DNA of 64,000 bases from Marinomonas rhizomae (GTDB lineage Bacteria > Pseudomonadota > Gammaproteobacteria > Pseudomonadales > Marinomonadaceae). The stretch lies in assembly GCF_024397855.1 (NCBI RefSeq), contig NZ_CP073343.1, forward strand, positions 3,844,001-3,908,000, given 5' to 3'. The position numbers and the translations under genes were made by a program. This document shows positions 4,041-50,627 of the stretch, one piece after another; positions within the stretch are counted from its first letter, which is position 1, and each line of letters starts with the position of its first letter. Below the pieces are notes generated by a model that was not told the origin of the DNA, ran no database searches, and saw only the letters and a list, made by a program, of their open reading frames with translations.

Positions 4041-4049
4041 GGATCAGTT

Positions 4050-4427
4050 ATGCCTTTTTATCTCGAAATTATCATTTGTGTGTCTTTGCTTGTTGGCGGC
4101 GCTTTTCTACTGATAGGTTCTTATGGCCTTGCGCGTTTGCCTGACATTTATATGCGTTTGCACAGCCCAACGAAGGCATCAACATTGGGCATCACTGGTG
4201 TTTTGGTAGCGTCTATGATTTTCCAAAGTCACTTGAAAGGATTCCTTTCCATTCAAGAGTTTTTGATTACTTTGTTCTTGTTGATTACCGCTCCTGTGGC
4301 GGCAAATATGATTGCCAAAACAGCACTGCATTATCGCACTAAGCCCTTAGAAAAAACCAAAAACCAAGAGCTTATGGAAACAATCCGTAATAGAGAAACG
4401 CCTAATCAGCCAGAGGACCAGAAGTAA
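4050..4427 (+). CDS. mnhG: Mrp antiporter subunit G
   Basis: 125 residues. Three hydrophobic segments are followed by a charged C-terminal tail. The block GSYGLARLPDIYMRLHSPTKASTLG is the MrpG signature. It is the last gene of the six-gene group-2 operon. Its last 26 bases overlap the 3' end of the convergent ammonium-transporter/GGDEF-EAL gene, and no terminator is visible between the two, so the transcripts probably overlap in antisense. Confidence 0.93.
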   Translation: MPFYLEIIICVSLLVGGAFLLIGSYGLARLPDIYMRLHSPTKASTLGITGVLVASMIFQSHLKGFLSIQEFLITLFLLITAPVAANMIAKTALHYRTKPLEKTKNQELMETIRNRETPNQPEDQK

Positions 4428-7400
4428 GTAGCTTGGCGATATCAACATTCAACATAGGTTTGTGAAAATAGTAGCCTTGGAAAACCTCACAACCTAACGA
4501 TTTCAACATCTCTGCCTGCGGAGCGGTTTCTACGCCCTCCGCGACAATCCTAAGGTCCAAACTGCGTGCTAAGTGAATAATGGTTTCACAGATTTTTGCG
4601 TCTTCAATATGCCGATCACACTCTTCAACAAACGACTGGTCGAGCTTCAAGATATCTAATGGAAGTCGCTTCAAATAACTTAATGACGAATACCCAGTCC
4701 CAAAATCATCTATCGATATCTTAATATTCAACGCCTTCAATTCGGCCATAACTTCAATGCAGCGCTGAATGTCCTGTAGAAGAACGCCCTCTGTGATTTC
4801 AATCTCTAATAAACGACCTTCCATATCATAGGCTTTCAGTTGCTGTGAAATATAAGACACCAGAGAATCCGATACCAAATGTCGCCCTGAAAGATTTACT
4901 GCGATAGGAACAATATGCAAACCTTGCTCACGCCATACCTTTTGCTGTTGCAAAACCTGATCGATCACCCATTCGTCAATTTTAATGATTAGATTAGATT
5001 CTTCTGCAATAGGTATAAAGTCAGCGGGAGAAATAAGCCCTTTACTCGGATGATTCCAACGGATAAGCGCTTCCAATCCGAGAATGTTGTTTTTCTCCAT
5101 AAGCACTTTTGGTTGGAAGACCAAAGAAAACTGCTTAGATGCCAGTGCATCATTAATTTCTTTCTCGAAGCCAAACTTTTTCGTGACAATATTGGCCATT
5201 TCTGGCGTGAAAAACTGCGCATTATCACGGCCTTTTTCCTTTGCCCAATACATCGCAATATCCGCTTGCTGAATCAACTTTTCAGCATCCAGGCTTGGCT
5301 CATCCTCAGGAGTATGAGTAATGCCTATACTGGTTGGTATGGTGAAATACTGTTCATTTAAATACACTGGCGCTCGCATCGCTTCCAAAATTTGCTGAGC
5401 TCGCTGAGCTAAACGACTTTCAGTAACATTCTCTGTCATCATGAAGACAAATTCATCGCCGCCCCAGCGAGCAATAACATCAAACTGATCCGATACTCCA
5501 ATTAACCGCCTTGCAACTTCACATAGCAATTCATCACCGGCTTTGTGGCCTAATGTGTCATTAATAATCTTAAAGTTATCCAAATCTAAGAACAGCAATC
5601 CAACAGACGTTTTTTGCTTAGTTGCAAAGAGCAAGGCGCTAATCAAAGATTCCATTAAATAAGTACGATTGTACAAACTGGTTAATGGGTCGCTGTAAGC
5701 TAAAAACTTCAAACGCTCTTGTAGCTTCACATGACGTGTCATATCTCTAATATGAAGTGTGTACTCACTTTCTTGCGAAGTTTCTGTATTCGCTTTAGTA
5801 ATGGCTATTTCAGCTGGGAAGTCATTATTCGGACTACGCTGTAAACGAAATGGGTTTCGTCGGTTCAGGATCAAACCATTTGACGTTGAGAAACCAGAGT
5901 TCAAGCTTTCAAAAATTTTCTTCCTATCTTCTTCTCGTATAAATAGGCCGATAAAGCTTTTGCCTTCCACTTGTTTTTTCAGGCAACCAAAGGTTCTCTC
6001 GGCAGCTGGGTTAAACTCCATCACAGAACCAAAACGGTTAATTGTCACAATACAATCCATTGACGAATTTAATATCGCCGACTTACGTATTTCACTTTCT
6101 TGAAAGCGCATCAAAGCATTGTCTCGTTGCGCAATTTCAGTACTCACTCGATCAATAACTTGATTGTATTTTCGAGCAATCTGTCCCACTTCTGTAAAAG
6201 GCTCCTCAGGAACAGGTCTTGAAAAATCAGCGTTGTTTTGTTGATATTGCATAGAGGTCAGCAAATCAAATAGCTCTGTCGTCGCTCTATGTTCAGCAAC
6301 ATTAAGGCCTTGCTCTTCTTGCTCTTTGCTTGCTCGCAGCGGCATAAGACGATTGAGCAACCACATGCCGGCATAGCCCACTACAAAACAATAGATACCA
6401 ACAACCACAATACCTAGTGCTTGCACCCCAAGCTGTCCTAAGACTCCCAAACCATTATCAATTTTATCCGTTTGACCAAACAGCGCGACACTCAAAGTCC
6501 CCCAAATCCCAGCAAACAAATGGGCAGGAACCACATCAAGAGCATCGTCTAAGCGCCAGCGCTCCATCAGTAAACTACCGAAGTACACAACCACACCAGA
6601 AACAGCACCAATAATCACGGAGGCTCCAGGCGACACCACATGACAAGAAGCCGTGATACCGACTAAGCCCGCAATGGTGCCATTTAATACAAAACCCACT
6701 TCGATATAGCCATCACGGAAATAATTAATAGCGGCGGCAATGAGTGCCCCCCACGCCGCAGAAATGAAGGTGTTCAGAAGGATAATCGGCACGTCATCGG
6801 TTAGTGCTAATGTACTACCACCATTAAAGCCTATCCAACCAAACCAAATTAATAGCGTTCCTAAAGCAGACAAAGGAAGATTATTACCAGGCGGTAAACG
6901 GATGCCTTCTTCGAAGCGCCCCATTCGAGGTCCAATTATGATGATCGCAGCCAGAGCAACCCAGCCACCAACAGAATGAACAACGGTAGAGCCTGCAAAG
7001 TCAATAAAACCAAGAGCCTCCAGCCAACCCTTCGGACCATCTGAAGGATAAACGCCTGACCAAGTCCAGTGCCCAACAATCGGGTAAATAAACGCACTTA
7101 ACACAACTGTGATTGCGAGATAGCCGATAAATGTCATGCGCTCGGCAACCGCTCCCGACGTGAGCGTCGAAGCGGTACCACAAAACATCATCTGAAAAAG
7201 GAAAAAGCTGATTTGCCAAGGCGTGTGTTGATCATCAAAAAAGAAATCGCTGATACCAAACAAACCCGCAACCGAGTCACCAAACATGATGCCAAAGCCG
7301 AACAACCAAAATAACGTGGTCGAGATAATAAAATCGGAGATGTTTTTTGCCGCAACGTTAATGCTATTTTTACTGCGAATACGACCGCTTTCTAAGCACA

Positions 7401-46196: not shown

Positions 46197-47096
46197 ATGT
46201 CTAACCACGACGACCCCGTTTCGACTGTCTATCGTGGCCGCTTTGCACCTTCGCCAACCGGTCCTCTCCATTTTGGCTCGCTAGTCAGCGCATTAGCGAG
46301 CTATTTGGACGCAAAAAAACAGCAAGGCAGCTGGATCATTCGCATTGAAGATGTGGATGGAACACGCTGCAAGCCTAGCTTTTCCGAGCAAATCACCGAA
46401 ACCCTTAGAAGTTACCAGCTTTTTTCTGACGAACCAATTCGCGTTCAAAGCCAGCACAGTGAAATTTACGAGCAAAAGCTGTCTGAATTAAAAAGACAAC
46501 AAATCGTATTCCCCTGTAATTGCACTCGCCAGTCCCTTGCTCAGCATAATGGCAACCACCCTCAGGAATGCCAGAGCACAACTAGTAAACCTCATTCATG
46601 GCGACTAAAAGCCAGCTCAGCGGTTTATCTATGCCAAGATGATATTCAAGGTTCCCTGCAGCTCTCTGAAGATCTCAAAAACAACTGCCCAGTTTTAAAA
46701 CGAAAAGACGGCTTCTTCTCTTACCAACTTGCTGTCGTGGTTGACGATCACTTACAAAACATCAGCCATTTGGTGAGAGGGGCTGATCTAATAGAAACCA
46801 CGGCTCAACAACTACACCTCTATAATTTATTTGGCTGGACACCGCCGAGCATTTGCCACATCCCACTTATAATCAACCATTCTGGCGACAAAATCAGCAA
46901 ACAAAATCACGCAAGAGCCATTGAAAACGGTCACCTCCCCACCCTATTGCGTGCACTCCACTATCTAAAAATTGACCTAACGGAACCCTCTTCTATAGCA
47001 GAAGCAATATCCCTAGCAATTGAAGCCTGGGATCCAAGCAAATTAAAAGGAATAAAAGACCTTCCCCTCGAAAAACAGGACCTGCACTTCATCTGA
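46197..47096 (+). CDS. gluQ: Glutamyl-Q tRNA(Asp) synthetase
   Basis: 299 residues, a truncated GluRS paralogue lacking the anticodon-binding domain. The HIGH-type motif is FAPSPTGPLHFGSLVSA and the KMSKS-type motif is GDKISKQNHA. A zinc site is suggested by CNCTRQSL and the later Cys in HPQECQ. It attaches glutamate to queuosine in tRNA-Asp. It lies directly after dksA as in most gammaproteobacteria. Confidence 0.93.
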   Translation: MSNHDDPVSTVYRGRFAPSPTGPLHFGSLVSALASYLDAKKQQGSWIIRIEDVDGTRCKPSFSEQITETLRSYQLFSDEPIRVQSQHSEIYEQKLSELKRQQIVFPCNCTRQSLAQHNGNHPQECQSTTSKPHSWRLKASSAVYLCQDDIQGSLQLSEDLKNNCPVLKRKDGFFSYQLAVVVDDHLQNISHLVRGADLIETTAQQLHLYNLFGWTPPSICHIPLIINHSGDKISKQNHARAIENGHLPTLLRALHYLKIDLTEPSSIAEAISLAIEAWDPSKLKGIKDLPLEKQDLHFI

Positions 47097-47221: not shown

Positions 47222-48610
47222 ATGCACAGCATTATGATCATTTGCCCAGACAGCTCACCACTAAAAGAATCAGAAAAATGGCTGTCTCGATATGGCTTTC
47301 AAGTAAACACCAGCAACACGCTAGAACAAGCCAACCGATACTATGAGCTATCTGAATTTCACCTCCTACTCATTGATCAAGAGGCTATCAATCAATTAGC
47401 CGAAGGTCATTTAGAACTGCCTAGCACACCACATCGCATTGTACTTGACGCAAAAGCCAGCCTAAGCACAGGCGTTAGCAGCATGGCACAAGGTGCACTT
47501 TACTACCTTCCCCTGCCAACAGACTCTGAAAGCCTACTAAAACATGTCGTCAATGCCCTAGAAAAAAAAGAACAATCAACACAAACAACAGAATCCATAG
47601 CTCAAACCTCCTCTAACTCCGCGGAGGAAAGCATTGTTTTAGGCTCCGCTGGAAGCGGCATTATTGGCCAGTGCCCACCAATGCAAGAACTCTTCAGTGA
47701 TATGCGTAAAATTGCAGGTACCCATGTCACCGTCCTAATACGTGGTGAATCAGGGACAGGTAAAGAACTGGTCGCCAAAGCGCTTCATAACCTAAGCCAG
47801 CGCCATAACCACCCAATTATCAGCGTAAACTGTGCCGCCATTCCAGAAAACCTAATAGAATCAGAGTTATTTGGTCATGAAAAGGGAGCATTTACAGGTG
47901 CAAACTCCTCTCACGATGGTCTTATTTACGCCGCAGACAAAGGCACACTCTTCTTAGATGAAATAGGCGAACTGCCACTAGAAGCTCAAGCAAGGCTACT
48001 GCGAGTCTTACAAGAAGGAGAAATACGCAAAGTTGGCGCAACACAGTCAACCAAAGTAAACATCCGACTCATCACCGCCACCCACAGAAATCTAATAGAT
48101 ATGGTCAAGAACGGACTGTTCCGGGAGGATTTATACTATCGCCTTTATGTAATGGAGCTACTTCTACCGCCACTAAGAGATAGGGGTGATGACATCTCCA
48201 TGTTGGCAAAAATTCTTCTTGAGAAAGCCTGCCAGAAGCACAACAAGCCGATCTACAAATACAACCAAACATTCGACAAAGCTATCAGGGCACACAATTG
48301 GCCAGGAAACGTGCGAGAGCTCGAAAACGCAATAGAAAGAGCCGTCATTCTTAGCCCGCCTGAAAGAGTCGAAGCAGCCAACTTAAAGCTTTCCAGCCAA
48401 CAACAAAGCTTACATTCTACGAACATGCCACAGTCGACAGACAACGACTTAATGGCAGGCACGACACTGGATGATTACTTCAAACATTTTGTCCTTACGC
48501 ACCAACACAAGATGACAGAAACACAACTTGCACATTCCTTGGGCATATCAAGAAAAAGTTTATGGGAAAGACGACAAAAACTGGCAATACCCAAAAAGGT
48601 AACAACATAA
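47222..48610 (+). CDS. Sigma-54-dependent activator, CbrB-like, with degenerate receiver
   Basis: 462 residues. Residues 1-115 form a receiver-like domain that keeps an aspartate at the phosphorylation position (D52). It has lost the conserved lysine (YYLPLP, L98) and the Thr/Ser (D76), and has only one of the acidic pair (D10). Residues ~145-385 are a sigma-54 AAA+ domain with Walker A GESGTGKE (175-182), GAFTGA (222-227) and Walker B GTLFLDEIGE. A Fis-type helix-turn-helix ends the protein (ETQLAHSLGISRKSLWERRQKL). Position between gluQ and pcnB matches cbrB of Pseudomonas, but no cbrA kinase gene is adjacent. It is the likely activator of the -24/-12 promoter just downstream. Confidence 0.85.
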   Translation: MHSIMIICPDSSPLKESEKWLSRYGFQVNTSNTLEQANRYYELSEFHLLLIDQEAINQLAEGHLELPSTPHRIVLDAKASLSTGVSSMAQGALYYLPLPTDSESLLKHVVNALEKKEQSTQTTESIAQTSSNSAEESIVLGSAGSGIIGQCPPMQELFSDMRKIAGTHVTVLIRGESGTGKELVAKALHNLSQRHNHPIISVNCAAIPENLIESELFGHEKGAFTGANSSHDGLIYAADKGTLFLDEIGELPLEAQARLLRVLQEGEIRKVGATQSTKVNIRLITATHRNLIDMVKNGLFREDLYYRLYVMELLLPPLRDRGDDISMLAKILLEKACQKHNKPIYKYNQTFDKAIRAHNWPGNVRELENAIERAVILSPPERVEAANLKLSSQQQSLHSTNMPQSTDNDLMAGTTLDDYFKHFVLTHQHKMTETQLAHSLGISRKSLWERRQKLAIPKKVTT

Positions 48611-48713
48611 AAGTAACACTTGATACCAAAATACCCAAAAAACAAACGCAAAATTGTAAAGAAAGTGTACAAAAATATGCCAAAACCCAACAAAATCAGC
48701 ACTTTATTGTTTT

Positions 48714-48728
48714 TGGCACAACAAATGC
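48714..48728 (+). promoter_or_regulatory. Sigma-54 (-24/-12) promoter
   Basis: TGGCAC then ATGC, with the invariant GG (48715-48716) and GC (48727-48728) separated by exactly 10 bases, as RpoN promoters require. No long open frame follows, so it should drive a non-coding RNA starting near 48740. It lies ~100 bases after a sigma-54 activator gene. Confidence 0.8.
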
Positions 48729-48739
48729 CTTATATACAC

Positions 48740-49030
48740 CACAACGATAAGAAGATTGACCAAGAATAAAAATAAGTTAATCGTCGTATGTAGGTTCTTA
48801 AAAACAACAATAAAAATAGGAACACTGTAGCCTCTTCAAATAAAAATAAAAATTTGAGGCTATGGATGGAAAATCGCTTTGGATAATTGATCTTTTTAGA
48901 TATACAAGCCTTCGGGCAATGAAAACAATGCAAAAATAAAAATAAAACCTGAGTAGAACTGCAGAAGCAGCACCCACTTTGTTTTCGGAACTAGTATCTT
49001 CATGTATCCAAAGCGATTATTTTATTTACT
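48740..49030 (+). ncRNA. Candidate CrcZ-like Hfq/Crc-binding small RNA
   Basis: A non-coding ~290-base interval between the CbrB-like gene and pcnB, the position of crcZ in Pseudomonas. It has four A-rich blocks matching AAnAAnAA, the Hfq/Crc target: 48762-48776, 48800-48818, 48837-48855 and 48921-48947. The third block lies in the loop of hairpin TAGCCTC/GAGGCTA (48828-48862). A GCC-TTCG-GGC hairpin is at 48908-48918. A perfect 14-base inverted repeat (48872-48885 with 49005-49018), followed by a T-rich stretch, may close the 3' domain. Start and end are inferred from the promoter and the last stem. Sequence similarity to CrcZ itself was not tested. Confidence 0.68.
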
Positions 49031-49169
49031 CATTAGTAAATATTAAATCGCTTCAGTTATCTCTTCTATATCGACATACCCATTTTGCTCAAACAATACC
49101 ATTATCCGTGTAACTTTAGTCTATCACGTGTAGAATGCCCTTTTCGTTAACTTTAAAATTTGTTGTCTA

Positions 49170-50627
49170 ATGCTTACAGGATTAAAATCTCTGGTACGTA
49201 AAGCTACCTCACTGTTTGCCTCTCCAAAGGCACAGACTTACCCTATTATCATCCCTCGCAGCGATCACAGCTTATCTCGACAAGACTTAAGCCCAAATGC
49301 CGTCAAAGTATTGTATCGCCTAAATAAAGCGGGCTTCGACGCCTTTCTTGTTGGTGGCTGCGTTCGAGACCATCTTATTGGCATTGAGCCTAAAGATTTT
49401 GACGTTGTTACCAACGCGACCCCCGAAGAAGTTCACACCATATTCTCAAACTCAAGACTCATTGGCCGCCGATTCAAATTGGTCCATGTCACGTTTGGGC
49501 GCGAAATCATCGAAGTCTCAACATTTAGAGCCAATTCCGCTCAAAACGACAGCAATGATGACAACGCACAGAACACCTCTTTGAAAGGCAAAGACTCCGC
49601 TCGATCCGCCCATGGCATCGTCTTGCGTGATAATGTCTATGGCAACATTGAAGAAGATGCAGAACGCCGAGACTTCACTTTTAACGCTTTATATTACAAT
49701 GTCCAGGACTTCAGTATTCACGATTACTGCGGTGGCCTGAAAGACATTGAAAATAAACAGATTCGCATCATTGGTGATGCTCGTCAGCGTTATCAAGAAG
49801 ACCCTGTTCGCATGCTGCGCGCTATTCGCTTTGCCGGTAAACTAGGATTTGAATTAGAAGCCGACACTGCGGCGCCAATCAAAGAAATGGCGCATCTTTT
49901 GGATCACATTCCACCTGCACGCCTATTTGAAGAAGTATTAAAACTGCTTGGCAGTGGCAATGGCATTGATACTTTTCATTTACTTCGCCAATACGGTTTG
50001 TTCCGCTACTTATTTCCAGACGCTGAAGCCTTATTGCAAAGTGGTTGGAAGCGTCACGACATCGACCCTGAAGCGTTCATTCTGCAAGGCCTAAAAAACA
50101 CCGACGACCGCATCCAAAGCGGAAAAACCACTGCACCATATTTCTTGTATGCTGTACTGCTTTGGCCTAGCGTTGCACTTCGTCATGAAGAATTTCAAGC
50201 GCAGGGCATGCCAGCAACACCGGCTTTGCACCAAGCCGCTAACATGGTACTAGACAACCAAGTCGCATCCACCGCTATCCCGCGCCGATTCTCCACGCCA
50301 ATGCGTGAAATCTGGGACATGCAGTACCGACTACCAAAGCGCTACGGCAAACGAGCGTTTCTACTACTTGAACATCCTCGCTTCCGTGCGGGTTTCGACT
50401 TCTTGTTGATTCGAGAACTAAGCGGTACTGACTTAGATGGATTGGGCGATTGGTGGGAGAAATTCCAGCACGGCACAGAAAGCCAACAAAGAGACCTGAT
50501 CAAAAGTATCGATTCATTCACGAAAGACAAGGATGGCCCTAAAAAGCGCCGCCCTCGTCGTCGTAGAAAGAGCAATGGCAACACATCCGAAACAGCTAAA
50601 CCACAAAGCGAAACTTTTGACGAGTAA
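49170..50627 (+). CDS. pcnB: Poly(A) polymerase I
   Basis: 485 residues. The nucleotidyltransferase head has FLVGGCVRDHLIGIEPKDFDVVTNA, with the two catalytic aspartates in DFD. The RRDFTFNALYYN and RMLRAIRFAGKLGF blocks follow. The long basic C-terminus (KKRRPRRRRK) distinguishes PcnB from CCA-adding enzymes. It adds 3' poly(A) tails and promotes RNA decay. A ~140-base leader separates it from the candidate small RNA. Confidence 0.94.
   Translation: MLTGLKSLVRKATSLFASPKAQTYPIIIPRSDHSLSRQDLSPNAVKVLYRLNKAGFDAFLVGGCVRDHLIGIEPKDFDVVTNATPEEVHTIFSNSRLIGRRFKLVHVTFGREIIEVSTFRANSAQNDSNDDNAQNTSLKGKDSARSAHGIVLRDNVYGNIEEDAERRDFTFNALYYNVQDFSIHDYCGGLKDIENKQIRIIGDARQRYQEDPVRMLRAIRFAGKLGFELEADTAAPIKEMAHLLDHIPPARLFEEVLKLLGSGNGIDTFHLLRQYGLFRYLFPDAEALLQSGWKRHDIDPEAFILQGLKNTDDRIQSGKTTAPYFLYAVLLWPSVALRHEEFQAQGMPATPALHQAANMVLDNQVASTAIPRRFSTPMREIWDMQYRLPKRYGKRAFLLLEHPRFRAGFDFLLIRELSGTDLDGLGDWWEKFQHGTESQQRDLIKSIDSFTKDKDGPKKRRPRRRRKSNGNTSETAKPQSETFDE

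Follow-up and report, generated by a model that had tools for sequence, protein, structure and literature searches.

A candidate diverged CrcZ homologue between a CbrB-type activator gene and pcnB in Marinomonas

The small RNA CrcZ of Pseudomonas aeruginosa is described as a 407-nt molecule with six A-rich stretches that titrates Hfq (PMC4063720). The response regulator CbrB is reported to act through three subsites with the pattern TGTTAC-N12-14-GTAACA-N15-19-GTAACA, in a 2022 review that presents CbrAB as unique to the Pseudomonadaceae (PMC8871633). A 2018 paper likewise calls CbrAB exclusive of that family and describes P. putida CbrB as "barely dependent on phosphorylation" (PMC6296734), and as late as 2019 the signal that activates CbrA/B was described as unknown (PMC6422490). 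Searches of the open-access literature on CrcZ, Crc or CbrA in Marinomonas, on CbrB in Halomonas and on CbrAB in Marinobacter gave no account of such a circuit there.

We analysed a 64,000-nt stretch of the Marinomonas rhizomae chromosome (the window; positions 3844001 to 3908000 of a complete 4.37-Mb genome), for which an initial annotation had proposed a sigma-54-dependent RNA functionally equivalent to CrcZ. The candidate RNA resembles CrcZ (RF01675; Pseudomonas, Azotobacter) in its position between cbrB and pcnB, in its sigma-54 promoter and in carrying several (A-R-N)n tracts. By eye, it also shares a closing helix with a UUUGGA/UCCAAA core and a CUGC-ANAA-GCAG hairpin that follows an A-rich tract. 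Unlike CrcZ, it is ~289 nt rather than 407 nt long, it has four tracts rather than the six described for P. aeruginosa CrcZ (PMC4063720) or the five of the CrcZ RNAs at loci L047 and L155, it scores far under the Rfam cut-off, and its genus has no CbrA.

The locus and its conserved RNA

The window carries, in this order, dksA, gluQ (46197-47096), a sigma-54 activator gene, the candidate RNA, pcnB, folK and panB (Table 1). As proposed, the RNA is flanked by a sigma-54 activator gene and by pcnB, both identified by profile match. Among named loci, those of Marinomonas colpomeniae (87%) and Marinomonas sp. MED121 (74%) have the closest PcnB. NCBI places Marinomonas in the Oceanospirillales; our genome set follows GTDB, in which one order, which we take to be the Pseudomonadales, contains both Marinomonas and a genome with an Rfam-certified CrcZ (G054).

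Table 1. Features of the candidate RNA locus, in window coordinates.
Feature	Position	Strand	Basis or remark
CbrB-type sigma-54 activator, 462 aa	47222..48610	+	Pfam Sigma54_activat, 239.7 bits; locus synteny; alignments
GTAACA half-site 1, candidate activator site	48599..48604	+	-115 from the T of TGG; CbrB subsite hexamer of Pseudomonas (PMC8871633)
GTAACA half-site 2, candidate	48613..48618	+	-101; motif match
TGATAC half-site 3 (TGTTAC type), candidate	48621..48626	+	-93; motif match
-24/-12 (sigma-54) promoter TGGCACAACAAATGC, GG-N10-GC	48714..48728	+	Pattern match; genus conservation
CrcZ-type small RNA, ~289 nt	48739..49027	+	Start predicted from promoter; end from conserved U-rich tail
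Hairpin 1, loop with A-rich block 1	48754..48782	+	Window fold, consensus fold, covariation
A-rich block 1 (AANAANAA type)	48762-48775	+	At least 11 nt; hairpin 1 loop
Hairpin 2, loop with A-rich block 2	48794..48823	+	Fold of the window sequence only; absent from RNAalifold consensus
A-rich block 2	48800-48816	+	At least 11 nt; hairpin 2 loop
Hairpin 3, loop with A-rich block 3	48825..48865	+	Double changes within the genus in 7 of 10 pairs
A-rich block 3	48839-48852	+	At least 11 nt; hairpin 3 loop
3' domain, long closing helix, A-rich block 4 inside	48866..49024	+	Arms ~48866-48885 and 49005-49024
A-rich block 4	48932-48945	+	At least 11 nt; 3' domain
CUGC-AGAA-GCAG hairpin in 3' domain	48959-48970	+	Fold
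U-rich tail past closing helix, candidate 3' end	49019..49027	+	Genus conservation
pcnB, downstream neighbour fixing synteny	49170..50627	+	TIGR01942, 530.4 bits

The activator was matched at E ≤ 1e-60 in all 56 genomes searched, the window genome included. Its gene lies upstream of pcnB in 35/35 Marinomonas genomes and in 17 of 21 genomes from other families (the other four gave no interval, pcnB not being found in the stretch fetched), and we treat the activators as orthologous because of this position. Across the 35 Marinomonas genomes, the activator-pcnB interval is 518 to 600 nt long, and gluQ lies upstream on the same stretch in every case.

The exact GG-N10-GC promoter was found where it had been annotated. 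As a bare pattern, the -24/-12 sequence is about as frequent as chance predicts (two matches in 64 kb, 1.43 expected); despite this, the promoter call gains weight from its position and conservation, since it is present at the same place in 35/35 Marinomonas genomes, with a TGGCAT variant in two. The RNA block is likewise kept in all 35, while most of the flanking sequence diverges. From the predicted start to the U-rich tail, the RNA measures 286 to 294 nt in 34 of the 35 genomes; the tail differs at the remaining locus (L045), which was left out of the 34-RNA alignment and of the tract count given below. The conserved end lies 3 nt short of the originally annotated span (48714..49030). As had also been claimed, no coding frame is apparent: the longest open run in the RNA region is 30 codons over the three plus-strand frames.

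The RNA contains exactly four A-rich blocks of at least 11 nt, the number originally described, and four were reached in 0 of 2,000 shuffles. Among 6,372 sliding windows of 291 nt (both strands, step 20), only six hold four blocks, and all six overlap the RNA. All four blocks in the window read as A-R-N triplets with n ≥ 4, and four (A-R-N)n tracts with n ≥ 4 are present in each of the 34 Marinomonas RNAs; neither the promoter nor the A-rich blocks have been lost in close relatives. Averaged over each block, the unpaired probability reaches 0.85 or more in 115 of 136 blocks and 0.7 or more in 133, with a minimum of 0.56.

The window RNA has a predicted folding energy of -66.9 kcal/mol (z -5.0), and none of 200 shuffles was equally stable. 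Over the 34 RNAs, 99.5% of the cells of 62 consensus pairs can pair, and at 11 pairs both partners have changed; none of 500 shuffles matched this covariation, and six slid versions of the structure gave at most 4 such pairs. The double changes fall mostly in hairpin 3 (7 pairs). Since the closing helix is nearly invariant and has no double changes, covariation says little about it, and its assignment comes from folding and conservation. An inverted repeat, AAGCGATT...AATCGCTT (window 49011-49056), could compete with the closing helix; it is present in only part of the genus.

The copy number and setting of the RNA were examined with R1, a covariance model built from Marinomonas RNAs alone. 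In a sample of 390 genomes from the order, R1 gave one match per genome in 18/18 Marinomonas genomes, a search in which four candidates per genome were scored and a diverged second copy could escape. The RNA is of the same kind as CrcY and CrcX, the further Pseudomonas copies described in PMC8871633, and differs from them in giving this single match. At two loci from other genomes (L053 and L056, in G039 and G045), one cbrB-pcnB interval holds two -24/-12 promoters, each with A-rich blocks, which is possibly a tandem duplication of the RNA. At L064 (G043), the promoter lies 2,451 nt from the end of cbrB and 381 nt from pcnB, which reads as an insertion between the activator gene and the RNA.

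Relationship to CrcZ

The Rfam CrcZ model (RF01675) gave no hit at its gathering threshold in the window (13.8 and 13.0 bits against a cut-off of 95), so that the family search proposed along with the initial annotation came out negative; chance places in the same genome reach 13.9 bits, level with the 13.8 bits of the RNA. Among 20 loci, the same model certifies only L047, missing two Marinomonas loci and 17/17 other-family loci, 16 of which do have a cbrB-pcnB interval, and among 11 loci of a second set it certifies only L155 (Stutzerimonas). Since other-family loci with the interval are missed as well, the model tests closeness to Pseudomonas, and we set it aside as a direct membership test as too narrow (17/17 and 10/11 loci missed). 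The certified CrcZ of L047 and of L155 lies between cbrB and pcnB, the same place as the Marinomonas RNA. Just upstream of CrcZ in the Stutzerimonas locus (L155, 5244-5306) is an Rfam P36 sRNA match (47.2 bits).

R1 was also run on 80 named pcnB loci (1.0 Mb), giving 24 hits at E ≤ 10. Twenty of these fall in the interval upstream of pcnB, and the other four score 9.6 to 11.4 bits. The model finds the RNA in M. colpomeniae (327.7 bits) and Marinomonas sp. MED121 (298.9 bits); beyond the genus its best matches are in Marinobacter (25.7 to 31.4 bits) and two Pseudomonas loci (22.7 and 21.5 bits), followed by Oceanospirillum (20.5 bits) and Motiliproteus (19.2 bits). In the order sample, R1 gave 10 hits outside the genus, seven of which were fetched; six lie between cbrB and pcnB, and the seventh (G041:C113) is not close to either gene. 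With filters off, R1 reached E < 0.001 in two of seven Pseudomonadaceae loci and scored L047 at 10.8 bits.

The connection to Pseudomonas came from a held-out model, R2, built from eight intervals (four from Marinobacter, three from genomes of family f34 and one from family f20) and thus free of both Marinomonas and Pseudomonas in its training. Over 83 loci, R2 gave a match at the crcZ position in L047 and in each of the 20 named loci from Pseudomonas/Stutzerimonas (42.4 to 64.9 bits, E 1.2e-13 to 3.4e-8), and it also matched 8/8 Marinomonas loci given (28.6 to 41.6 bits); its best match outside any cbrB-pcnB interval was 12.5 bits. R2 matches all 35 Marinomonas loci at 21.9 to 41.6 bits, the weakest being L045 (21.9) and L031 (26.5), and when run unfiltered on the window it scored the RNA at 33.2 bits and nothing outside it above 11.6 bits. 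Because a model trained without either group matches both at the same place, we read the RNA as a diverged homologue of CrcZ. This homology is well supported by sequence through intermediates, the direct similarity being weak.

Elsewhere in the 83 loci, R2 was weak, with Halomonas-type loci at up to 17.4 bits, Microbulbifer at 16.0 and Gilvimarinus at up to 13.7, and it found no match in the interval of Cellvibrio (L167); these lineages are therefore assigned by gene arrangement. On whole genomes with strict filters, R2 missed all 18 Marinomonas genomes of the order sample and matched 64 of the 390 genomes at E ≤ 0.01 (more than 27 bits in 53; 10 families), a count by score that includes training genomes and takes no account of match position. 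On 274 genomes of the class, 12 besides G054 matched at up to 26.5 bits, a value not below the two weakest Marinomonas hits. These matches in other orders are chance, and R2 matches under ~27 bits are not to be trusted alone. One genome (G041) gave three R2 matches (C113:14511-14758, C113:30171-30429 and C154:54845-55001), the first with no cbrB or pcnB match nearby; these are possibly further copies of the RNA.

The activator, its candidate sites and CbrA

The activator consists of a degenerate receiver domain, an AAA+ domain and a C-terminal helix-turn-helix region, and this last region, like the half-site hexamers, is shared with the CbrA-CbrB system. Two GTAACA hexamers with at most one mismatch each are present ~115 and 101 bp before the promoter in 35/35 Marinomonas genomes (both exact in 32), as is a TGTTAC hexamer with at most one mismatch ~93 bp before it. 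The published three-site order and spacing are not kept in Marinomonas, which has the hexamers in an order of its own; several other-family loci come near the published pattern (L047, L051, L055, L057, L061 and L063).

The genus differs from CbrA-CbrB both in lacking CbrA and in its receiver. CbrA is a sensor that combines an SSF part with a histidine kinase. A CbrA-type frame of 975 to 1,030 aa precedes the activator in 14/14 other-family genomes fetched, and no CbrA was found, beside cbrB or elsewhere, in 35/35 Marinomonas genomes in a search with the 547-aa transporter part of one CbrA. The same search returned one distant relative elsewhere in each Marinomonas genome (28 to 33% identity), with an open frame of 979 to 1,213 aa in 34 genomes and 466 aa in G011. 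In the window genome this relative lies at C1:1336688-1338286 (open frame 1,152 aa, 31% identity) and is possibly a sensor of the same build. An SSF-domain search for CbrA returned only proteins of 518 and 597 aa; because it also missed the 1,152-aa relative, we base the absence of CbrA on the transporter-part search.

Of the canonical receiver residues (acidic pair, Asp, Thr and Lys), the Marinomonas activators retain only the phospho-acceptor Asp (35/35); Lys is replaced by Leu and Thr by Asp in all 35, and the acidic pair is lost. In the 21 other-family genomes, Lys is present in 21, Thr in 20 and Asp in 19. The two exceptions for Asp, both with Glu, are G048 (L062/L183) and G046 (L066/L184), where gluQ directly precedes cbrB with no CbrA at the locus; the transporter-part search found no CbrA in G046, and its one find in G048 was a distant relative on a different contig. 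With Marinomonas included, at least three lineages have loci that lack CbrA and carry an altered receiver.

With CbrA lost and its receiver non-canonical, the Marinomonas activator would be active without phosphorylation or through another signal, and the weak dependence of P. putida CbrB on phosphorylation (PMC6296734) makes the loss of CbrA easier to understand. A broader reading, which we regard as evenly balanced, is that the carbon-state input was replaced in Marinomonas, with CbrA lost and the CbrB receiver turned into a conserved pseudo-receiver that reads another signal, and that this arose more than once. The replacement signal would be a ligand, a protein partner or the amount of activator, a one-component sigma-54 activator would drive a CrcZ-type sponge, and the circuit would have been inherited from the ancestor of the entire order to which Pseudomonas and Marinomonas belong.

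The arrangement itself is widespread. A CbrB match lies upstream of pcnB in 52 of the 80 named loci, and 49 of these 52 combine a promoter score of 9 or more (out of 12) with at least two long A-rich blocks; the three that do not come from Alloalcanivorax (L119), from Alcanivorax (L126) and from a bin of uncultured origin (L163). Among the 22 loci without CbrB that had enough sequence (six of the 80 were set aside for too little upstream sequence), eight pass for the promoter score, two for A-rich blocks and one, from Salinicola (L124), for both. CbrA stands beside CbrB in 48 of the 52 and was not found in two Marinomonas loci, in L090, where the contig ends, or in L163. The arrangement is seen in, among others, Pseudomonas, Halomonas, Marinobacter, Motiliproteus, Oceanospirillum, Gilvimarinus, Cellvibrio, Microbulbifer, Zhongshania and Spongiibacter; none of the loci examined from Vibrio, Photobacterium, Xanthomonas and Rheinheimera has it. 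When each family was represented by one genome, 21 genomes yielded 17 intervals, and 12 of these pass the same promoter and A-rich test.

The Salinicola salarius locus (L124, ~4041-6001) carries a gluQ-like frame and pcnB and, between them, a sigma-54 promoter accompanied by seven long A-rich blocks. Neither cbrA nor cbrB has a match there; the locus apparently kept the RNA but lost the two genes.

These distributions suggest, on sequence grounds, that the control circuit is wider than the 2022 review (PMC8871633) holds. The proposal that the Cbr/Crc circuit extends to another family is supported, and the arrangement occurs in many families. The Marinomonas version has no CbrA and a degenerate receiver.

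Proposed function and alternatives

In the mechanism that we propose, the CbrB orthologue would bind the GTAACA/TGTTAC half-sites ~90 to 115 bp upstream and activate sigma-54 RNA polymerase at the -24/-12 promoter, either independently of phosphorylation or fed by another signal. The product would be an RNA of ~289 nt with three (A-R-N)n tracts in hairpin loops and one in the 3' domain; these four tracts would engage Hfq at its distal face jointly with Crc, and the abundant RNA would draw Hfq/Crc off target mRNAs, relieving catabolite repression. That the RNA is a diverged CrcZ homologue, activated by CbrB and sponging Hfq/Crc, is in our judgement very probable. We infer its transcription, its activation by CbrB, its binding to Hfq/Crc and the relief of repression from the sequence.

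Such a sponge presupposes Hfq and Crc. The window genome encodes Hfq (100 bits, 81 aa) and a Crc candidate (G000:C1:600734-601507) that matches P. aeruginosa Crc (4jg3) at 266.8 bits, against 216.8 bits for an exonuclease-type structure (PDB 4b5h) and 62.4 bits for E. coli exonuclease III. The candidate adjoins pyrE (196.4 bits), and crc and pyrE are linked in Pseudomonas. It reads GTAN where XthA of the same genome has GDIN, the Asp of which is presumably catalytic. NCBIfam labels the protein exodeoxyribonuclease III by a narrow score (183.3 bits against a cut-off of 182.55). The distal face of Hfq is described as binding (A-R-N)n tracts (PMC4063720, PMC6422490), a property that would also suit an RNA with another task, namely, an A-rich sponge or base-pairing RNA that acts with Hfq but without Crc. 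We consider this improbable, given that 35/35 Marinomonas genomes keep, at 89 to 100% identity, a Crc-like protein in which GTAN replaces the GDxN of the nucleases.

A still smaller chance attaches to the conserved stretch being a long, cis-acting 5' leader of pcnB rather than a free small RNA. In all 35 Marinomonas genomes it does precede pcnB in the same orientation, a short element near pcnB is conserved as well, and a simple terminator scan (loop limit 8 nt) found no terminator, leaving the U-rich tail uncalled. Strong conservation nevertheless stops at that tail, most of the next 108 to 183 nt before pcnB diverges, the first promoter at L056 and L057 is more than 1 kb from pcnB, and the Pseudomonas homologue is described as a free RNA of 407 nt (PMC4063720). 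That the A-rich blocks and promoter-like match arose by chance in an AT-rich spacer, as the chance-level frequency of the -24/-12 pattern might allow, has a negligible likelihood, being already contradicted by the fold, the conservation with compensatory changes and the block shuffles.

The reading as a diverged CrcZ homologue thus draws on position, promoter type, half-sites, A-rich blocks, the presence of crc and hfq, and the R2 link. The functional equivalence originally claimed stands as far as homology to CrcZ is concerned, the function itself being predicted. If the circuit is order-wide, Marinobacter, Halomonas and Cellvibrio, examples of marine and polymer-degrading genera, may rank their foods in the same way. 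Lineages that keep the activator and the RNA while having lost the sensor provide a natural experiment on the CbrA/B signal.
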